A DNA stretch of 64,000 nt, from positions 62,001 through 126,000 of the forward strand of contig JAKQQP010000233.1 in assembly GCA_029564115.1 (NCBI GenBank), given 5' to 3'. Below the pieces are notes generated by a model. The model ran no database searches, was not told the origin of the DNA, and saw only the letters and a program-made list of their open reading frames with translations. Below, piece by piece: positions 33,221 through 42,790 of this stretch. A program made the position numbers and the translations under genes. Within the stretch, counting starts at the first letter, position 1; every line of letters begins with the position of its first letter. Origin of the DNA: Candidatus Rifleibacteriota bacterium (GTDB lineage: Bacteria; Riflebacteria; Ozemobacteria; Ozemobacterales; Ozemobacteraceae).

Positions 33221-34201
33221 TTATTTTTTGTTTTTTTTGATCGAAAAAAACCTTCGGGCACCTTCGTGAAGCATCTCTTCTTCGAGCCCGGCCCTGCCTT
33301 CTTCGAATACCGGCCGCCCACCTGCTTGTCCGTGATCAGAAAACAGTGTCGGGTTACCATAAATCAGTCGCAGCATTGTCATAACTTCTTCGCGTGGCAG
33401 ACTTTCAACGCCGGCGAGCAATGCTCTGAACCCAATCGTTTGAACCGGCTCCTGCTGGCCCTTATACGATTCTTTGACTATGGTTTCGTTCGAAAAATAA
33501 GGGTAATCAGTAACCAGTTTTTCGCGAACGGCGGTTGGAATATTCACGAGCCTGACCGGTATTTTTGCTGCCAGTCGTGTTATACCATCAGCAGGAACGG
33601 CGCCAGCGTAATAAACTGCATCAACATAGCCATCGACCAGCGATTCGGTAGCACGGGTAAAACGCTCGTAGACAAAGGCGTAATCTTCGGGAGCCAGACC
33701 GGCGGCAGTTAATACAAGACGTACACTCGCTGCGCTACCGCTCTCTTTTTCACCAACTGCAATTTTTTTGCCTTTCAGATCTGTGATATCTCTGATTTCT
33801 GAATCTGACCGAACGACGATCTGTATCACCTCAGAATAAAGAGATGCCAGAACCCGCAGTTCGCGAAAACGACTGCCCGAAAAGTGGTGAGCACCATTGA
33901 ATGCCATCCAGGCAACATCGCTTTGCACGAGAGCAAGATCTATCTGACCACGTCTGAGATATTCGATGTTTGCCAGAGAACCCGCGGTTGGCTCGGCTAG
34001 AACGACCAGCCCTTTCATTCTGCTGCTCAACAGACGTGCAATCGAGTTTCCGACCGGGTAGTAAGTCCCGTTGATGCTTGCAGTGCCCATCGAATAGAAT
34101 TTTTTGATCAATCTCGCCTGGTAATCTTCTGCAGCAAGGCTACAGGACGCAGAACCCAGAAGCATCAGAACCGTCACCAAAATCATGTTTTTCAGATTCA
34201 T
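33221..34201 (-). CDS. TAXI-family solute-binding protein (TRAP-type receptor)
   Basis: A 326-residue exported binding protein with a signal peptide (MNLKNMILVTVLMLLGSASC, then SLAAED). The segments FYSMGTASINGTYYPVGNSI, RLLSSRMKGLVVLAEPTAGS, IEYLRRGQIDLALVQSDVAW and DLKGKKIAVGEKESGSA are hallmarks of TAXI (TRAP-associated extracytoplasmic immunogenic) receptors, which bind carboxylates such as glutamate. No TRAP permease (DctM/QM type) is encoded beside it. Instead it overlaps the upstream GGDEF-like sensor gene by four bases (ATGA), so it is likely a ligand-sensing partner rather than a transport component. The Cys at the signal-peptide end might act as a lipobox, but the context is weak. 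Confidence 0.92.
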   Translation of the reverse strand: MNLKNMILVTVLMLLGSASCSLAAEDYQARLIKKFYSMGTASINGTYYPVGNSIARLLSSRMKGLVVLAEPTAGSLANIEYLRRGQIDLALVQSDVAWMAFNGAHHFSGSRFRELRVLASLYSEVIQIVVRSDSEIRDITDLKGKKIAVGEKESGSAASVRLVLTAAGLAPEDYAFVYERFTRATESLVDGYVDAVYYAGAVPADGITRLAAKIPVRLVNIPTAVREKLVTDYPYFSNETIVKESYKGQQEPVQTIGFRALLAGVESLPREEVMTMLRLIYGNPTLFSDHGQAGGRPVFEEGRAGLEEEMLHEGARRFFSIKKNKK

Positions 34202-36270
34202 TGTTCCGGATCCTTTCTCTGCCAGGTTGTGGTCACATTGCCGGTTTTGCGGCTGGTTTCCAGAGCCTCGTTAACACGTTCAACAAACTGGTAATGACGT
34301 TCAACAGAGTTTTCATACTGACAAATGCCAATACTGACCGTCACGTTGAATTCGAATTCATCGCGTTTTATCTGGAAAGCGGCGATCCGTTCGCGCAATC
34401 TTTCGGCAAAAATAAGCGACTGTTCGGCGCTTGTATGGGCAAGAATCGCCGCCATTTCATCGTTACCTGTACGGGCGGTAATGTCAGTGGCCCGCACCGA
34501 ATCACGCAAAATTCTGGCAATTTCAAACAGCGTCACTTCTGCAGCGGTAGCCCCGTATTTTTCGGGTAACCGGGCAAAACCATCGACGGCAAAAACCACC
34601 AGAGTCAATGGAAAGGCGAAGCGACGGGCTCTTTTAATTTCATCCTCGAGCCTGATCTCAAAAAACTTCTTTACATAGAGTTCTGTCTGGCCGTCGATAA
34701 TTGACAGCTCATGCAAGCGGGCATTATCTATGGACATCGCCATCTGGTTGGCTATGGCCAGAAGCAGATCGAGATCTTCAGAGGTAAAAGCCCGGCTGTT
34801 CGAACGATCAGCAAGATTGATGACCCCCATGGTATTACCATGCACGGTCAATGGCACAGAGATCAAGGTCTCCGGGGGGCGGGTGCCGGTGCTGCTGTCG
34901 TAATTTTTGAACCGCTCGTCGGAGCGGCAGTCCATACAAAGAATTGCGTCACCTGTTCTGGCCACTTCACCGGCGATACCTTCGCCGACTTTCAGAGCAA
35001 ATCTTTGCTGCGGTCTGCTGTCGGCTTCGTCGCCAGACACATCCGCCTTGCCGGTTTCTGTGTTAACGGCAGCTTTGAAGCTTTCAACGCGCAACAGGCT
35101 GCGATCTTCATTCAGAAGCATGATCGAGCCACGTCGAGCCTGAAATATCTCTACCAGATGTTCTAGACAACCATCGAGCGCCTGCTGATAGGTGGCAGAA
35201 GTATTGATCAGCTGAGTTACCCTGTATAAAGCACTCAATTCAGTAACTTTTTTTCTGATGCGCCGGCTCATGTTGTTGAAACAGCCTGCAAGAAAACCAA
35301 GCTCATCACTGCGATCGATATTAACCGTCACCTCGAGGTTTCCCTCGCTGAGCTCGTTGGCTTTTTTTGCAATCTCTATTACCGGGCTGGTCATCCTGAC
35401 GCTGAACCAGGTTGCCAGCATAAAAGCCACGATTGACAGCAGAATGACAAATTTAAAAGTTTTCTCACCAATAGAACGCGCCACGGCGTAAACCTCGCCA
35501 GCATTCTGAAAAACGAAAATTCTCAGGCCATAATGTAGAATTGGCAAAGAAATGGCAATCTGTGGGGGCATGCCATTACGCCTGGGCAGAAGATCGTAAG
35601 CCCCGCAAGGCTTTTCCATGAGATCCGAAATGAGTTCTTTCGGGAAATCGGGCTGTTCCAGTATATTTTCACCATTCTGAGTCACCAGAAAATAACGAAA
35701 GTTAGTGCCAAAAGTTATGCCTTCAAGCGATTTACGCAGCTTCAAAAATGATATGGTTGAAATTACCGAAGCCCCTTGAGGAGAATCGGGGACAAGAGCT
35801 TTTACGTGAAAAGCTTCGGGCGAAAACATTATATTCTGCGGCGATACGGCCAGAAGCTGTTCCGGCACCGAGAGAGCCGTGATTGAAGATTGCTCTGGCT
35901 TTGAATGAGCAAGCAAAGTACCGTCAGAAGCAACAAGAACCAGGCGGTCAACATATTCATAAGCCTGATCGAGCTGCTGCAGAGATTTTATTGCGCCTTC
36001 CGCGGCTGGCTCATTCAGGCGGGCATCGGCCGCCACATAACGGGTAAGTTCATCGTAAACGCTGACGTATTGGTCTACTTCATATTTTACTTGCTGAAAA
36101 GCCTGGATATTGCCTTCTATCAGAATGTCGCGGGCAATTTCGCCGAGTATATTGAATGAATAAAGGCCCAGCGAAAGTAATGGAAAAATCGCCAGCATAA
36201 AAATGCCAAGCCAGGCTCTGACTTTTATGCTTCTGAAAAAACCGGGTTGTGCGCCTGTGTTTTCACTCAT
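34198..36270 (-). CDS. Membrane sensor with HAMP, GAF and degenerate GGDEF domain
   Basis: A 690-residue protein. Order: an N-terminal helix (about 20-40), a periplasmic sensor domain (Cache-like, about 45-280), a second helix (about 285-305), HAMP (MTSPVIEIAKKANELSEGNL), GAF (about 365-510, with RRGSIMLLNEDRSLLRVESF and LISVPLTVHGNTMGVINLAD) and a C-terminal GGDEF fold (LYVKKFFEIRLEDEIKRARR, FAVDGF, ending VSIGICQYE). The signature is GNDEM at 601-605: the second Gly is Asn and Phe is Met, so diguanylate cyclase activity is doubtful. The inhibitory-site motif RATD (592-595) is kept. ATG at 36270 follows AGGAAA. The TAXI gene follows with a four-base overlap, suggesting the periplasmic domain reads the TAXI protein. 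Confidence 0.85.
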   Translation of the reverse strand: MSENTGAQPGFFRSIKVRAWLGIFMLAIFPLLSLGLYSFNILGEIARDILIEGNIQAFQQVKYEVDQYVSVYDELTRYVAADARLNEPAAEGAIKSLQQLDQAYEYVDRLVLVASDGTLLAHSKPEQSSITALSVPEQLLAVSPQNIMFSPEAFHVKALVPDSPQGASVISTISFLKLRKSLEGITFGTNFRYFLVTQNGENILEQPDFPKELISDLMEKPCGAYDLLPRRNGMPPQIAISLPILHYGLRIFVFQNAGEVYAVARSIGEKTFKFVILLSIVAFMLATWFSVRMTSPVIEIAKKANELSEGNLEVTVNIDRSDELGFLAGCFNNMSRRIRKKVTELSALYRVTQLINTSATYQQALDGCLEHLVEIFQARRGSIMLLNEDRSLLRVESFKAAVNTETGKADVSGDEADSRPQQRFALKVGEGIAGEVARTGDAILCMDCRSDERFKNYDSSTGTRPPETLISVPLTVHGNTMGVINLADRSNSRAFTSEDLDLLLAIANQMAMSIDNARLHELSIIDGQTELYVKKFFEIRLEDEIKRARRFAFPLTLVVFAVDGFARLPEKYGATAAEVTLFEIARILRDSVRATDITARTGNDEMAAILAHTSAEQSLIFAERLRERIAAFQIKRDEFEFNVTVSIGICQYENSVERHYQFVERVNEALETSRKTGNVTTTWQRKDPEQ

Positions 36271-36380
36271 CTTGGTTTCCTGAGATATAGATTCTTCCAC
36301 TGCAGTTTAATAAAAAAGCAGACTGCAAGTAAAGCTTTATCGTGTTGGTTGAACTGCCGCCATCATTCGTCGTGCCAGGT

Positions 36381-39300
36381 TCACCCCGACGCCCGGTCTG
36401 CTCCCGTCAACTGGAAAACTTTCAGCGGCAATGTCTTACCCTTCAATTCAATTTCGCCATACTCTCTCGCCAGAAATTCTCCCGGCAGAATTTCATAAAC
36501 ATTCTGCGAAATAAGACAACGCCCGAATCTGAGCTTTTCAGCCTGCCCGGCAATACGAGCGGCGGTATTCACGGCGTCGCCAATAATGGTGAAATCTCGT
36601 TTTTCACCGACTCCTAGAAAGCCGGTAATCACTTCGCCGCAATTCATACCGATTGCCACCGGAAAAGTCAGATTGCCGAGTTTTTCTGCATTCAGAATTT
36701 CGCTGGCAGCACGACAGGCAGCGGTGACGGCAACTTTTCGATCTACCTCGGAATTAAAGACGGCGAGAATCTTATCGCCAATTATTTTGTCGATATCACC
36801 ACCATGCTGCATTAACAGGCGAGACACACTCGTTACATGTGATTTAAGGTCCCCCATCAACTGCCCGACCGGCATTCCGCCGGCCCAGGTCGTAAAGTCA
36901 GGAATACCAATATAAACAATCACATATTCTGCCTTGTCACTGGTCTCAGTGCGTTCATGCAACGAAACTTTCAGAGCGGCCTTCGACAGCATTCTGCCCA
37001 TCAGCATCTTTTCTTCAAGACCCTTCATCATCGAATCAAATGAAGAGCAAAGAACGCCGAGTTCGTCAGATCTTTCTATCTGCAGCCGGAAAGCGTAATT
37101 TTCCCGGCCCGCCTGCCGCATACCCTCCATTAGCCCAGCCACCGGCACAAGTATGTCTGCCGCAACATTACGGGCAATAAGAAGAATTAGAAGCAGAGAT
37201 ATCAACAAAAGTGCATTGAATAGCGTTCTATTGTGCTCTATTGCACTGCGGATCGGCTTTTCTGGAGCCATGGCAATCAACATCGATGTAATTTGAGCGA
37301 CACCGGGTCGTCCTTCTACAAGCCAATCCTGGTCATCGTAATTTATCTTGCGGGCAATGGGAAGGTTGGATGAAGAAATCATCGCTGCAATCGAAGTTAT
37401 GGAATGCCTGAATTTCGAGTCTAATCCGGAAAATACGTTTCCATAGCGATGCGCCTCGACAGGCAAAATTTTGTAGGCACCACGATAGTTGCGTGCAACT
37501 CTGTTTAAAAAACCGTCATAATCGAGCAAAACCATCCAGACAATGATAAATTCAGGGTCCCGGATCGATGGAACTGGATAAATGACTATTCCGACGGTTC
37601 CAGAAAGAACATCGAGTAGAATCGGCAGTCCTAGACCATGCGAGAGCTTAATGAACGAATCATCGCCGAACATGGATCTTACAGTCTGCAAAGCCGTTTC
37701 TACCATAATAGATCCCGCCATTTCTTTCGCGCCATCGTCTTCCATGCTTAGTCTTTCGCTGCGGCGCCGAATTATGCTTCTGGCAATCTGGCCGAGCATG
37801 TTGCCAAACTGCGTCGCTTCTTCCCTGCCAGCGCCCGAGCTGGCAAAATTCCAGCCGCCCTTTCCTGCCATGGCAATATCTCTGGGAAGAAAATTGAAAA
37901 CATTCCGGTCGAGCCTTTCAGCCTTCGTGTGCCACGAATCGGTCATTTTTTTGAGCTCAACCTTCAGTTGCTCAACTTCTGCCGACCCCGAGGCATTGTT
38001 GAGTAAAGAAACCATCTGTGCTAGTTCAGGCGAGAAAGTCCAGTCTTTGACCATTTTCCAGCCAACCGGCGTAGAAAAACTGTCGCGCAACTCGAACAAA
38101 TCGATAAAACGCTGCAGATCATTTTTTTCCTGAGATATCCTGGCGTTGTAATCTTCAAGCAAATAAAGTTCAGAAACAAAGAACACTGTTATCAGCGGAG
38201 TTACGGCGGCTACGAGCAAGGTGAGCCAGAGCTTGGCCGCTATCGACCGGTTAATTGGCGATCTGCCAGTCACGACTCTGAACCAGGCAAAAAACAGGAC
38301 CAGACCTGCAAGAACAGCTCCAGGCAAAAGTGCCCGTCGCAGAACGGTTTTTTTTGCATTTGTCGGCGCCGCGACAATCAAAGTTTTTGCAACGCCCTCG
38401 ACAATGAACTTGTCCTCGTTGATCACGTAGTTCACGGGCGTAGAAATACTGTCAGAAGCAGCACTGGCGAAAAAATCTTTCAGGTCGGCCGGCAGGGAAT
38501 CTGGCGAAGCCAGCTTGTCATGACCGGATCTTATGACAACAAATCTGCCAGCATCGGAATAACCGTCGGCAAGTAACTGCGGCGAACCCTTCAGCTGGTC
38601 AATTTGTGCGGTAAACATAACCAGGCCAACACGTTCACCATCGCGTAAAATATAGTCACAAAACAGATACTCGGCATTGCCATCGATGCTGACTTCTGCA
38701 GTTCGATTCATGAACTCGTAAAGAAACACTGAATTGTCGAACTTATCGCCAAAAACATGGCGGGCAAAATTTTCAGGCAGACCTCCGTAACGGGCCTTCC
38801 AGCCGGGAACATCAACATACCTGCGCATAATAGCTAGTTTAGTTAAATCTGGCAGTGATGACTGAGCAAAACCCTTGTTATAAATGACGTCAGCACGCAA
38901 AGACTCCTGGTTTTCGGCATTGAATGGCGGGTAGAAAAACACCAGACTGCGCGAAGGCCGACCAGCGTCTTCACGTATCGTCAACAGAGTCTTCTCGAAC
39001 TTTTCCGGCAAACTGGCATCGTTAAGATTTCCAGCCCCGACAACACCCTCAAACATAAGCTGTAACCGCCGGCACTGGTTCTCAAAAGCGATTTTTTCAA
39101 CCTTTTCGCACTTCAACTGTTCGATCAGGCGTATATTTTCAGCGGTAAGAATAGCAGTCTGGCTTTTCAACTGAGCCTCATGCAGAATATCGTTGCCCCA
39201 GACAAAACTACCTATGACGAGAGCGATAAAAACTGCTCCAAAAACAAACGCTCCGGCAGTATTCAGCCCACCGTTCTGCCCCGCCTCAATTTTAAGCTGG

Positions 39301-42300
39301 TCCTTTTCAGAACTGGCAGCGGACTCCTCGGCATTTTCTGCAGCACTCTTTTCTTTGTCGGCATTCTCGCTACCAGCAGCAGAAAATTCGGGAATATTGC
39401 CCAGTTCCTCGAGCATAAAAGCAGAATCGCCTGTTCTGGCAAACCTCAAACCACGATTACGCAGTTTTAAAGCTATTCCTTCGTCAACGATGAGGGGAAA
39501 CGCCGGGTTGTTGCGGGAATAGCTCTCGAGAAGCGCCGCCTTTTTCAGCGGTTCACCGATGATGGCGTAGTCGAGCCTGGTATCGAGACTGCCGATGCTT
39601 CCCGAGAACATGGTTCCCTGGGCAAGCCCAACACCAATCTGGTATCTGAACAGCTTATTTTTGCCACGGCGGCGGTTGATCTGCATCAGTTTGACAATCA
39701 TCAGCGAAGCGGCGTTAAAAGCTCGCTCAGAAGCAGAGGCTTCGGCTTCTGGCTCTTCGGGAAACACCGCTTCGATAGCATCACCGATAAATTTATAGAT
39801 TCTGCCGCCATGCTCAGAAATAATTCTGGTCATTTCTGCAAAATGCTCGTTCAAAAGCTCGGTGACAACATGTGGAGGGTACTGCTCACACATGCCGGTA
39901 AAATTTCTTATATCCGAAACCATCGCCACTCCCTCGAAAGACGAGGTGTCAGAAATTTCTCCGCCAACTTCCAGTTTTGCTATGGCTTCAACAGCATGGT
40001 CGGAAATGAGCGTCGCCAGTTTCTCTCTTTCGCGCAGCCCTCGAGCCATATTGGTAAATTCACCGCATAGTTGCCCCAACTCGTCAGGAGTATCGCTGAT
40101 AATTTCAATGTCGAGCTTTCCTGATGAGACTTTTCTTAGTGCTGCCTCGAGACCGACGATCGGGTCAAGGAAAAGACGGTTGGAAAGATAGCCACACCAG
40201 ATAACGACCACCAGCGCCAGACAAAGTATCAGACCCAGAATAAGCAAACGGTAGCCGACCGCCTGCTCGAGATCGAAGTGCTGGGTGCCTCCGGCGATGA
40301 TTGTGTTGTAATACTTTTTGGAAGGCAGAGCGACCAGTGAAAAGTTATCGTATTTGGCAATCGCATAACTGCCACGAAAAGAAGCCAGCTCCGCCAAAGA
40401 TCTGCTTTTGTCATGAAAACCTGCACCGGTATGCCGATTCGGCTTGAAAAGAGGTGAAAGCCCCTGCGGAGTCACTCTGTAAGCAGTGAACGAGAAGCCT
40501 GGGTTATTCAAGCCAAAATAGTCGACCGTATGCCTGAAGGTTTTTTCATCCAGGGCCTGGTCATCCCAGACAATAAAGATAACGAAACGTTCCAGGCCGT
40601 CGATCTTTATCAATTCATGCATCTGAGTGGCGGTAACGCCACCGACCTGCCTGGTTATGGCAAATGATCGCCTTCTATCTATTTCGGATATAAGATCGTT
40701 GCCACTCATTGAATTATAAGCTTCGACAGCAGTTCTCTGAGCGCCTGTCGGCTTGAATTCACGAAGTTTTTCAGCCGGATTGTTTGCCTGCATTTTATTA
40801 CGCAGAATGCTTACAAGAGGGAACTTGAACGCTTCAAAAGTCGGATCTGCCTCTGCTTTGGAATGCCCGCCATAAAAACGAACCCCTTCACCGACTTCAT
40901 CCATAATAGCAAAGCTCAAAAGTGGAAGCGGCTGTGGACGATCCTTAAACAGGCTGAACACACGCTCTCTGGCTTGTTCACTCATGCCGCCACGCGCTTT
41001 GAGAATTTCGTGCAGCTCTTTATCGACAACAACCTCGGCAAAAGCGGCCCTGTATTCATCGAGAATCTGGGCTTTGCGGGCATCAAACTGCCTGATACAG
41101 AACTGAAGCTGCGACACAGCTTCAAAATGATTTGAGCGACGATATTGCATGACATAGCCATAGGCCGAAATAAGCAACATGCTCACCGGCAGCGTCGCAG
41201 CCAGAAAATATGTCAGGGTAAAACGCCATTTCAGGCTTACATTTGGCCATAGACCAAGAATCAACCCGCGCAACAGCAATAAAACAAGCGCTCCGCCGGC
41301 AAAAACATTAACAAGAAAAAGCCAGAGAGGAGTTTCAGGCTTCGGCACAGCCGGCAAAAGCAAAACAGAAAGATGCGATGCCCGCCTTCCCAGAAATGAA
41401 AAAGCGATATAGTTACCCAGTTCAGTGATTGGCGGCATGCCGTCCTGAAGCCATTTTTTTATATCTTCTTCAGAAAGAGAAACTTTGCTCTCTATCCAGT
41501 CTCTGAAAATTATTGATTTCTGAAGAGGCGACTGAAATACCGTACCGCCAAAGCCTGCAAACAATGGGATAAAAGCACCGTAACCAATGCGCTGTTCCTT
41601 GAGATCCTTTAATGCCAGCAATTTTCCGGATGCATTAACTGAGTCTTCACTGCGGGTAAGCAAAAAAAAGCCGAAGGTCCCATGCCCCTCTGCTTCAAAA
41701 TAATCCCACAGAAAAAAATGCGGAAAAAACTTATAAAAAGCGAATGTCGGGCGGCCACGCTGAGTTTTGGCCATAATCTCAGATTTGGCTTCATTACCAA
41801 GCAGACCGGTCAGAATCGCTTCATTCTGTCTGACATTATTCGCAGAGATAGTCTCGTTGCGGTTAACACGAACCAGGTATTCAAACGAACGAATTAAAGC
41901 TCTTCTAACGAGTATTCCCTGAGTATGAGCATGGAGAAGGTCAGCTGCACCGGTTTCAGGTATTCTGAAGACAAAAAGCTCATATTCAGGAAACGGGTAA
42001 CTGAAAATCCTGTCGGATCTTTTCTTGAGATTGTCTACCAGCTGATCGGGCTTGAGACCGTTGGCAGCAAGCGATTTGAACGTTTCTACAAAAGCTCCGG
42101 CATGCCGCGAAAACTGATAAGTAAAATCGGCTCCGGCGGCAAGAGCTTCTACTTCCTGCTGCCCAAGCTCTTTTTGTTCCTGCTTCCGCCAGTGGTGGTC
42201 AATCCCCGTCAGAAAACTGTAAGCCAGGTTTAAGGCTATAAGCGGCAGAAAGCACAACAATACGGGCAAATACATGCCCGTACTTCGGTTTGAACGAACT

Positions 42301-42314
42301 GGTGTGCCGCTCAC
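36381..42314 (-). CDS. Giant adenylate cyclase with two sensor-HAMP-cyclase halves
   Basis: A 1977-residue membrane protein made of two homologous halves. Half 1: helix near 14-36, periplasmic region, helices near 330-350 and 366-388, a second periplasmic region, helix 688-708, HAMP 709-765, class III cyclase domain about 790-965. Half 2: helices near 1020-1040, 1328-1346 and 1362-1384, helix 1698-1714, HAMP 1715-1770, cyclase about 1793-1972. Domain 1 keeps metal ligands Asp801 and Asp845, Lys841 and Asp915, but the Asn/Arg transition-state positions are Lys924 and Leu928. Domain 2 keeps Lys1843, Asp1847, Asp1907, Asn1916 and Arg1920, but the first metal Asp is Gly1803. The Lys/Asp purine pair indicates ATP. 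GTG start at 42314 overlaps the upstream gene (GTGA). Confidence 0.95.
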   Translation of the reverse strand: MSGTPVRSNRSTGMYLPVLLCFLPLIALNLAYSFLTGIDHHWRKQEQKELGQQEVEALAAGADFTYQFSRHAGAFVETFKSLAANGLKPDQLVDNLKKRSDRIFSYPFPEYELFVFRIPETGAADLLHAHTQGILVRRALIRSFEYLVRVNRNETISANNVRQNEAILTGLLGNEAKSEIMAKTQRGRPTFAFYKFFPHFFLWDYFEAEGHGTFGFFLLTRSEDSVNASGKLLALKDLKEQRIGYGAFIPLFAGFGGTVFQSPLQKSIIFRDWIESKVSLSEEDIKKWLQDGMPPITELGNYIAFSFLGRRASHLSVLLLPAVPKPETPLWLFLVNVFAGGALVLLLLRGLILGLWPNVSLKWRFTLTYFLAATLPVSMLLISAYGYVMQYRRSNHFEAVSQLQFCIRQFDARKAQILDEYRAAFAEVVVDKELHEILKARGGMSEQARERVFSLFKDRPQPLPLLSFAIMDEVGEGVRFYGGHSKAEADPTFEAFKFPLVSILRNKMQANNPAEKLREFKPTGAQRTAVEAYNSMSGNDLISEIDRRRSFAITRQVGGVTATQMHELIKIDGLERFVIFIVWDDQALDEKTFRHTVDYFGLNNPGFSFTAYRVTPQGLSPLFKPNRHTGAGFHDKSRSLAELASFRGSYAIAKYDNFSLVALPSKKYYNTIIAGGTQHFDLEQAVGYRLLILGLILCLALVVVIWCGYLSNRLFLDPIVGLEAALRKVSSGKLDIEIISDTPDELGQLCGEFTNMARGLREREKLATLISDHAVEAIAKLEVGGEISDTSSFEGVAMVSDIRNFTGMCEQYPPHVVTELLNEHFAEMTRIISEHGGRIYKFIGDAIEAVFPEEPEAEASASERAFNAASLMIVKLMQINRRRGKNKLFRYQIGVGLAQGTMFSGSIGSLDTRLDYAIIGEPLKKAALLESYSRNNPAFPLIVDEGIALKLRNRGLRFARTGDSAFMLEELGNIPEFSAAGSENADKEKSAAENAEESAASSEKDQLKIEAGQNGGLNTAGAFVFGAVFIALVIGSFVWGNDILHEAQLKSQTAILTAENIRLIEQLKCEKVEKIAFENQCRRLQLMFEGVVGAGNLNDASLPEKFEKTLLTIREDAGRPSRSLVFFYPPFNAENQESLRADVIYNKGFAQSSLPDLTKLAIMRRYVDVPGWKARYGGLPENFARHVFGDKFDNSVFLYEFMNRTAEVSIDGNAEYLFCDYILRDGERVGLVMFTAQIDQLKGSPQLLADGYSDAGRFVVIRSGHDKLASPDSLPADLKDFFASAASDSISTPVNYVINEDKFIVEGVAKTLIVAAPTNAKKTVLRRALLPGAVLAGLVLFFAWFRVVTGRSPINRSIAAKLWLTLLVAAVTPLITVFFVSELYLLEDYNARISQEKNDLQRFIDLFELRDSFSTPVGWKMVKDWTFSPELAQMVSLLNNASGSAEVEQLKVELKKMTDSWHTKAERLDRNVFNFLPRDIAMAGKGGWNFASSGAGREEATQFGNMLGQIARSIIRRRSERLSMEDDGAKEMAGSIMVETALQTVRSMFGDDSFIKLSHGLGLPILLDVLSGTVGIVIYPVPSIRDPEFIIVWMVLLDYDGFLNRVARNYRGAYKILPVEAHRYGNVFSGLDSKFRHSITSIAAMISSSNLPIARKINYDDQDWLVEGRPGVAQITSMLIAMAPEKPIRSAIEHNRTLFNALLLISLLLILLIARNVAADILVPVAGLMEGMRQAGRENYAFRLQIERSDELGVLCSSFDSMMKGLEEKMLMGRMLSKAALKVSLHERTETSDKAEYVIVYIGIPDFTTWAGGMPVGQLMGDLKSHVTSVSRLLMQHGGDIDKIIGDKILAVFNSEVDRKVAVTAACRAASEILNAEKLGNLTFPVAIGMNCGEVITGFLGVGEKRDFTIIGDAVNTAARIAGQAEKLRFGRCLISQNVYEILPGEFLAREYGEIELKGKTLPLKVFQLTGADRASG

Positions 42315-42790
42315 TCGCCCCCCCCGGACTTTTTATTTCTGTCTGCATTACTGATCAAAAAATAAGTATCGATAAAAGAGGCAATATACAAATAAAAAGC
42401 CGCGTCCAGCCATTGATTGTTTTTCAGGTCGGCTTCAAGCTTCATGAGATTGTTCGTTCTGCCAGTTCGCATGGCTTTTGTTACTTCCTGCTGTATTTCA
42501 GGTACGATTTCGCCAGCATAAACCAGAAGACATGCAATGATAATTACACAAAAAACCAGACCGCGCATACGATAACCAAGCTTCCAGGCGCCAAGTCCCG
42601 GGCACAGCAGATTTAAAAACATAACTCTGGCCATCCCCGGCCGCGACGATGCCGCCTTCCTCTGGGAGTCTGCCGGCTTGTTTTTGGCCAGATCGGATCT
42701 GCAAAATGGGCAAACCAAAGCTTCCGGCTTGATCATTTCTGCGCACCAGGGGCATTTAACCCGCAACTCAGTATGCCTGTCGTCACTCAT
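42311..42790 (-). CDS. Zinc-ribbon membrane protein co-transcribed with the cyclase
   Basis: A 159-residue protein with an N-terminal double-CxxC zinc ribbon (VKCPWCAEMIKPEALVCPFC), a short polar linker and two or three membrane helices (ARVMFLNLLCPGLGAWKLGY, GLVFCVIIIACLLVYAGEIV, AAFYLYIASFIDTYFLI). It ends four bases inside the GTG start of the cyclase gene, so translation of the two is coupled. A role in assembling, anchoring or regulating the cyclase is inferred from this overlap only. Similar ribbon-plus-helices proteins elsewhere are uncharacterised. Confidence 0.7.
   Translation of the reverse strand: MSDDRHTELRVKCPWCAEMIKPEALVCPFCRSDLAKNKPADSQRKAASSRPGMARVMFLNLLCPGLGAWKLGYRMRGLVFCVIIIACLLVYAGEIVPEIQQEVTKAMRTGRTNNLMKLEADLKNNQWLDAAFYLYIASFIDTYFLISNADRNKKSGGGE

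Follow-up and report, generated by a model that had tools for sequence, protein, structure and literature searches.

In a 64,000-nucleotide stretch of a Candidatus Rifleibacteriota genome (contig JAKQQP010000233.1, positions 62,001–126,000; hereafter, the window), an open reading frame (ORF) on the minus strand (36381..42314, GTG start), supported by full-length homologues, encodes a predicted twin-half receptor adenylate cyclase of 1977 aa. It carries two cyclase homology domains, termed CHD1 (first) and CHD2 (second). We consider it highly probable that the protein acts as a receptor adenylate cyclase in which its own two cyclase domains form a heterodimer with one working site: CHD1 would supply the two metal-binding Asp, and CHD2 the Lys/Asp for adenine and the Asn/Arg for the transition state. 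The protein would represent the fused version of an A/B cyclase system, of which neighbouring gene pairs are another version, and the A/B asymmetry would have arisen before the fused and split forms parted. This proposal draws on features observed in the sequences, namely the catalytic residues, their conservation, the homology of the halves, the gene pairs and a domain tree, and on a structural model that predicts the pairing of CHD1 with CHD2.

A probable composite catalytic site

As the original prediction had proposed, the ORF encodes two halves, each with a HAMP and a class III cyclase domain; Pfam detected two Guanylate_cyc domains (whole-protein E 4.5e-27) and two HAMP domains (1.2e-12). 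The PF00211 score of 95.3 bits against a curated cut-off of 21.9 placed the protein among the class III nucleotide cyclases. Hydropathy and models indicated four membrane helices per half. In half 1, periplasmic module I (residues ~37–329; 41328..42206, minus strand, as are all features below) lies between transmembrane (TM) helices at ~18–36 and ~330–348, as judged from hydropathy and a model, with the fold comparison covering mostly residues 387–691. Module II (~391–686; 40257..41144) has a Cache/LuxQ-like fold and is flanked by TM helices at ~366–390, visible in the model but under the hydropathy threshold, and ~690–708. These are followed by HAMP 1 (713–762; 40029..40178; Pfam), CHD1 (~790–970; 39405..39947) and a linker of low confidence (~972–1015; 39270..39401; model residues 183–226, pLDDT <50). 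In half 2, module I (~1040–1328; 38331..39197) is a homologue of its counterpart (hhalign 97.5, E 5.2e-12), and module II (~1382–1698; 37221..38171) bears a weak likeness to that of half 1 (66.2, E 5.5e-5). HAMP 2, with approximate bounds (~1720–1772; 36999..37157), is the second Pfam HAMP stretch, and HAMP-bearing kinase models match residues 1702–1774; CHD2 (~1797–1969; 36408..36926) ends the chain. An hhalign alignment of the two halves spans 731 columns (probability 99.9, E 1.4e-33), in support of the proposed duplication of the whole architecture.

In the catalytic columns (first metal, Lys, second metal, Asp, Asn, Arg), CHD1 reads D-K-D-D-K-L and CHD2 reads G-K-D-D-N-R. All residues named in the original prediction (D801, D845, K924, L928, G1803, K1843, D1907, N1916, and R1920) were found in place. 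CHD1 also retains the base-recognition pair K841 and D915, with K924 at the Asn and L928 at the Arg position, and CHD2, with G1803 at the first metal Asp position, retains an acidic second metal position (D1847). We looked for shifted Asn/Arg or Asp sites and found none; the six columns of the two domains coincide in the alignment, so these residues are not hidden elsewhere. Neither domain holds every catalytic residue as in the homodimeric class, since CHD1 is without Asn/Arg and CHD2 without the first metal Asp. Nevertheless, the metal Asp pair, the base Lys/Asp, and the Asn and Arg of one dimer site are all present, shared out between CHD1 and CHD2, and this division would give one working and one degenerate site per chain.

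In mammalian membrane cyclases, C1 gives the metal Asp pair and C2 gives Lys, Asp, Asn, and Arg. The prediction of one such composite site per chain is supported by the residues, by their conservation in 71 distinct rows, and by the predicted fold: a single-chain model of CHD1 and CHD2 closed the C1/C2 interface with a moderate pTM of 0.59. The two periplasmic sensor halves would signal, each via its own HAMP, to opposite sides of the active site, so that two inputs would act on one output. The enzyme would then convert ATP to cAMP and need both domains for it.

Conservation was investigated in a full-length protein search, in which 7985 candidates were scored and 85 hits obtained; the first 71 (P0001–P0071) were taken as the family. 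As P0001 is the window's own protein, 70 homologues remain, of which 66 are 1949–2176 aa long and four are shorter. Organism names among the hits were Riflebacteria or Rifleibacterium, plus one "uncultured bacterium"; the loci of relatives include one 58% identical (L001, Candidatus Riflebacteria) and one 33% identical (L002, uncultured bacterium isolate RUG334). In the tallies of the query and its homologues, with gaps omitted, the composite site was kept: D801, K841, and D845 in 70/70, D915 in 71/71, K1843 in 69/70, and D1907, N1916, R1920, K1958, and K1960 each in 69/69. At position 924, Lys occurred in 63 and Asn in 3 of the 71 rows. Position 928 held ten residue types (Lys 36, Arg 12, Glu 6, and Leu 4 of 71), for which the Leu of the window protein is atypical, and no row shown pairs Asn at 924 with Arg at 928. 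Position 1803 was Gly in 44, Ser in 13, Thr in 10, Asp in 1, and Asn in 1 of 69, and position 1847 was Glu in 47, Asp in 20, and Ser in 2 of 69. The most distant homologues vary at the lost positions (1803 is Asp in P0068 and Asn in P0070). P0068, a distant full-length relative, combines this Asp with Ser at 1847.

The second site has thus decayed across the family, judging from these alignments, while the composite site was kept, and the same complementary loss, with the metal Asp in the first domain and Asn/Arg in the second, is present in the window protein and its homologues. Could the protein merely bind nucleotide or relay signals, making no cAMP? The family is large and multi-copy, one genome having six consecutive twins, and one of its half-sites is degenerate. 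Such a pseudo-cyclase is nonetheless highly improbable, because one complete site is kept while the other drifts. Retention of the composite site in homologues down to 28% identity also argues that it is not there by chance.

Fused and split A/B cyclases and their origin

Cyclase genes were surveyed in the phylum-level set of G001, comprising 39 genomes (G001–G039). PF00211 matches were numerous, at 8 to 64 per genome, with scoring limited to 64 candidates in the richest genomes. PF00027 was present in 39/39, and readers of cAMP are therefore likely to exist in these organisms. We analysed 152 loci from 33 genomes (20 + 112 + 20), chosen for resemblance to A domains or, in part, for cyclase ORFs that are long or stand next to one another, and the counts thus describe a non-random sample. 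Domains were classified as A (both metal Asp without Asn and Arg), B (Asn and Arg without both Asp), or full (all kept). By this scheme, CHD1 is A and CHD2 is B.

The search for single- and double-half homologues suggested earlier yielded both, as neighbouring gene pairs and as fused proteins. Among 267 distinct cyclase ORFs were 62 two-domain ones, of which 59 were (A,B), 1 was (full,B), and 2 were (partial,B). Another 11 A ORFs, which extend >250 aa past the domain, were counted separately; these are probably fused genes that are truncated at a locus end or interrupted. The 194 one-domain ORFs comprised 79 A, 76 B, 31 full, and 8 partial. One-domain A mostly adjoined one-domain B (66 of 79) or a partial row (5); two had only a fused neighbour and six had none, all eight near a locus end. 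One-domain B adjoined one-domain A (63 of 76), full (3), or a partial row (1); for six the neighbour was only a two-domain or probably interrupted two-domain ORF (five near a locus end and one interior, in L139), and the three without a cyclase neighbour lay near a locus end. Every A or B interior to a locus hence has a cyclase neighbour. Of the full ORFs, 28 lacked a neighbouring cyclase (11 of these lay close to a locus end) and three adjoined B.

Within 400 nt, 74 distinct adjacent one-domain pairs were found in 132 loci (46 A-B, 21 B-A, 1 full-B, 1 B-full, and 5 with a partial row), an array gene being allowed to count in two pairs. Stop-to-stop open frames overlapped in 65 of the 74, which suggests overlapping genes. 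Six one-domain A/B ORFs were examined (L055 and L126; 966–1021 aa), and each had four hydrophobic segments, like one half of the window protein. As a control, albeit one biased by being picked for canonical domains, the loci with the best PF00211 matches (L003–L051) contained 1/49 domains that was not full, the A member of a pair in L022. Fused A-B proteins occurred in 20 of the 33 genomes, split pairs in 21, both in 16, and either in 25.

Several loci had unusual arrangements. In L151 (10380–16541), L144, and L194, a full A-side member stands with a B-type partner, and these are possible intermediates. In L109 and L139, an A-type ORF exceeding one half in length has a short ORF close behind it, whose domain is B-type or partial, as if a twin gene had been interrupted. 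L052 and L053 (G002:C314:9000–48999) contain a same-strand run of six twin cyclase genes, an array of two-half receptors.

These arrangements also bear on whether CHD1 of one chain might pair with CHD2 of another, the enzyme then being a dimer or an array of twins. The occurrence of A and B as separate genes implies that they can do without a covalent link, and several twins stand in a row in G002, but the single-chain model closes the C1/C2 interface unaided, although a model of this kind cannot discriminate. We regard such intermolecular pairing as a minority possibility, and favour pairing within one chain.

The order of events was examined in a tree of 303 domains from which the six catalytic columns were omitted. 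The classes changed far less often than in the shuffled mean: 5 against 98 changes for A (131 rows), 3 against 90 for B (110 rows), and 5 against 57 for full (62 rows). All A and B rows except the B row of L218 grouped together with weak support (70) and three embedded full rows; the A rows fell into a mainly fused cluster and a split one. In a 130-row tree, neither A as a single clade (p 0.416) nor B without L218 (p 0.425) was rejected. A single clade of every fused domain, with the split and full rows outside it, was rejected (lnL 185 worse, p 1.15e-9; 39 vs 70 rows). As the A and B clades were allowed and the fused clade was not, fused CHD1 is kin of A genes and fused CHD2 kin of B genes. 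Fused and split states changed at least three times among A rows and at least four times among B rows. L218 (2439–8030, G037) holds a full cyclase adjoining a B-class one that is without the second rather than the first metal Asp; this row groups apart from the other B rows and is perhaps an independent start of the asymmetry.

In the order of the original prediction, a homodimeric receptor cyclase was duplicated and fused in the window lineage and its domains lost different residues afterwards; split pairs elsewhere would then be independent or products of fission. The halves are indeed homologous over their aligned length, and of the 60 two-CHD ORFs whose rows are complete, 59 have A before B and one has full before B. 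However, the rejected union of fused CHD1 and CHD2 argues against this order, as do the starred sets, which hold A rows only near CHD1 and B rows only near CHD2. With split pairs showing the same complementary losses in 21/33 genomes, the asymmetry predates the difference between fused and split forms, and fusion before divergence is unlikely. A variant in which fusion took place at the root and later fission gave rise to the gene pairs may hold; the B-A order in 21 of the 74 pairs, some within arrays, speaks only mildly against it.

Besides this variant and the non-random choice of loci, several observations weigh against an A/B system with a single composite site. The deep tree branches are weakly supported, and eight of the 33 genomes (G003, G029–G031, and G035–G038), all thinly sampled, yielded neither form; their loci gave complete cyclases only, or pairs in which one row is partial or odd. 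The asymmetry is not absolute, as the A-side partners in L144, L194, and L151 bear a complete residue set and position 1803 is Asp in P0068. Beyond the family of the window protein, the Lys/Asp pair is kept less strictly: the base Asp is replaced by Glu in 20/61 fused second domains and the base Lys by Arg in 21/60 fused first domains. The one-site mechanism itself is read from sequence and a model of moderate pTM, onto which AlphaFold may have imposed the known cyclase dimer.

Genomic neighbourhood

Upstream of the cyclase, and overlapping its start by 4 nt, a gene (42311..42790) encodes a 159-aa zinc-ribbon-like protein with a CxxC pair and hydrophobic stretches, for which all Pfam matches were below the cut-off and no NCBIfam match was obtained. 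It matched 12 loci (11 places, as L002 equals L054), in every case with a twin cyclase, complete or truncated at the end of the locus, immediately downstream. A HAMP-GAF-GGDEF protein (34198..36300) is encoded 80 nt downstream of the cyclase. Its gene matched eight loci, and the five matches above 50% identity (L052, L119, L130, L148, and L157) all lay downstream of twin cyclases, four of them at about 1.5–1.7 kb. The GGDEF signature is degenerate (TGNDEM at residue 611), and the syntenic copies covering the motif read DTNKF-like in L052 and GDEEF in L119; the diguanylate cyclase may thus be inactive in some.

Overlapping the GGDEF gene by 4 nt is the gene for a TAXI-family periplasmic solute-binding protein (33221..34201). 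It matched five loci, three above 50% (L052, L111, and L119), and in L052 and L119 it comes after the GGDEF gene, the order found in the window. A scan of 14 neighbouring ORFs (29735–52974) showed no TRAP transporter gene for it and listed no TIR or cNMP-binding domain. The gene matches point to a recurring locus in which the gene for a small membrane protein precedes one or several twin cyclases, with a GGDEF protein and a periplasmic binding protein encoded after them. By analogy with LuxP/LuxQ, and as a guess, the TAXI protein might present a ligand to the sensor halves.

Relation to known cyclases and implications

Mammalian membrane adenylyl cyclases (AC5, AC8, and AC9) have two six-helix membrane bundles, whereas each half of the window protein combines four helices with a pair of large periplasmic modules and a HAMP domain; it is also bacterial, with split pairs occurring beside fused forms. 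Human soluble adenylyl cyclase (ADCY10), which is bicarbonate-regulated, differs in being without membrane sensor halves. Soluble guanylate cyclase alpha/beta, a eukaryotic, NO/haem-regulated heterodimer of separate subunits with one site, resembles the split A/B genes in its subunits and single site, although it is a guanylate cyclase. Homodimeric bacterial class III cyclases (Rv1625c/Cya, CyaB, and the complete single-CHD proteins of the same genomes) share the catalytic fold, and CyaB was the top PDB sequence match, but they hold every catalytic residue in each chain.

A Lys/Asp pair marks ATP-specific class III cyclases. The original prediction took bacterial class III cyclases to be usually homodimers, and this agrees with the portions available of a 2022 perspective, which places duplication and fusion to a pseudoheterodimer most likely early in eukaryotes (PMC9552081), and of PMC4886424, which calls the prokaryotic enzymes typically homodimeric. 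It needs qualifying for clade A PycC, known two-domain bacterial class III-like proteins (PaPycC, 6YII; PMC11224242). Like the window protein, these have two consecutive cyclase domains in one chain; they belong to the pyrimidine cyclase family of anti-phage systems, which is marked by a genomic partner effector (PycTIR/PycTM) and a cyclic pyrimidine product, and, in the part of that paper available, are not described as membrane receptors. Their example raises the thought of a cyclic nucleotide other than cAMP as the product. This is improbable, since the ATP-marking pair is kept in the window family (K1843 and D1907) and CHD2 is a much closer match to adenylate cyclases, CyaB among them (E 9.4e-17). 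The available parts of PMC9433096 and PMC1183210 contain nothing resembling an A/B cyclase arrangement, the 20,587 characters of PMC2447327 include none of the terms sought, and we recognised no description of such a bacterial system in the literature searched, subscription papers being outside its scope.

The one-site arrangement is predicted here in bacteria, and the main surprise is a split/fused system at the scale of a phylum. As relatives carry both halves either fused or as neighbouring genes, they provide a natural example of how one-site cyclases arise, and because the two forms stand side by side in 16/33 sampled genomes, the order of duplication, specialisation, and fusion can be tested with living intermediates. 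More broadly, and only tentatively, the phylum may run much of its cAMP signalling via obligately heterodimeric receptor cyclases. A and B would have arisen once, stayed coupled as neighbours, and switched between fused and split forms several times; they may swap partners within arrays, and the pseudo-site (the Lys/Asp pair with Lys924 and Glu/Asp1847) may bind a regulatory nucleotide. Asymmetry would then precede fusion, the reverse of the usual account of the animal adenylyl cyclases. The finding prompts the question of what leads organisms to abandon one active site out of two, and it provides a bacterial enzyme whose two distinct external sensors may converge on a single output.

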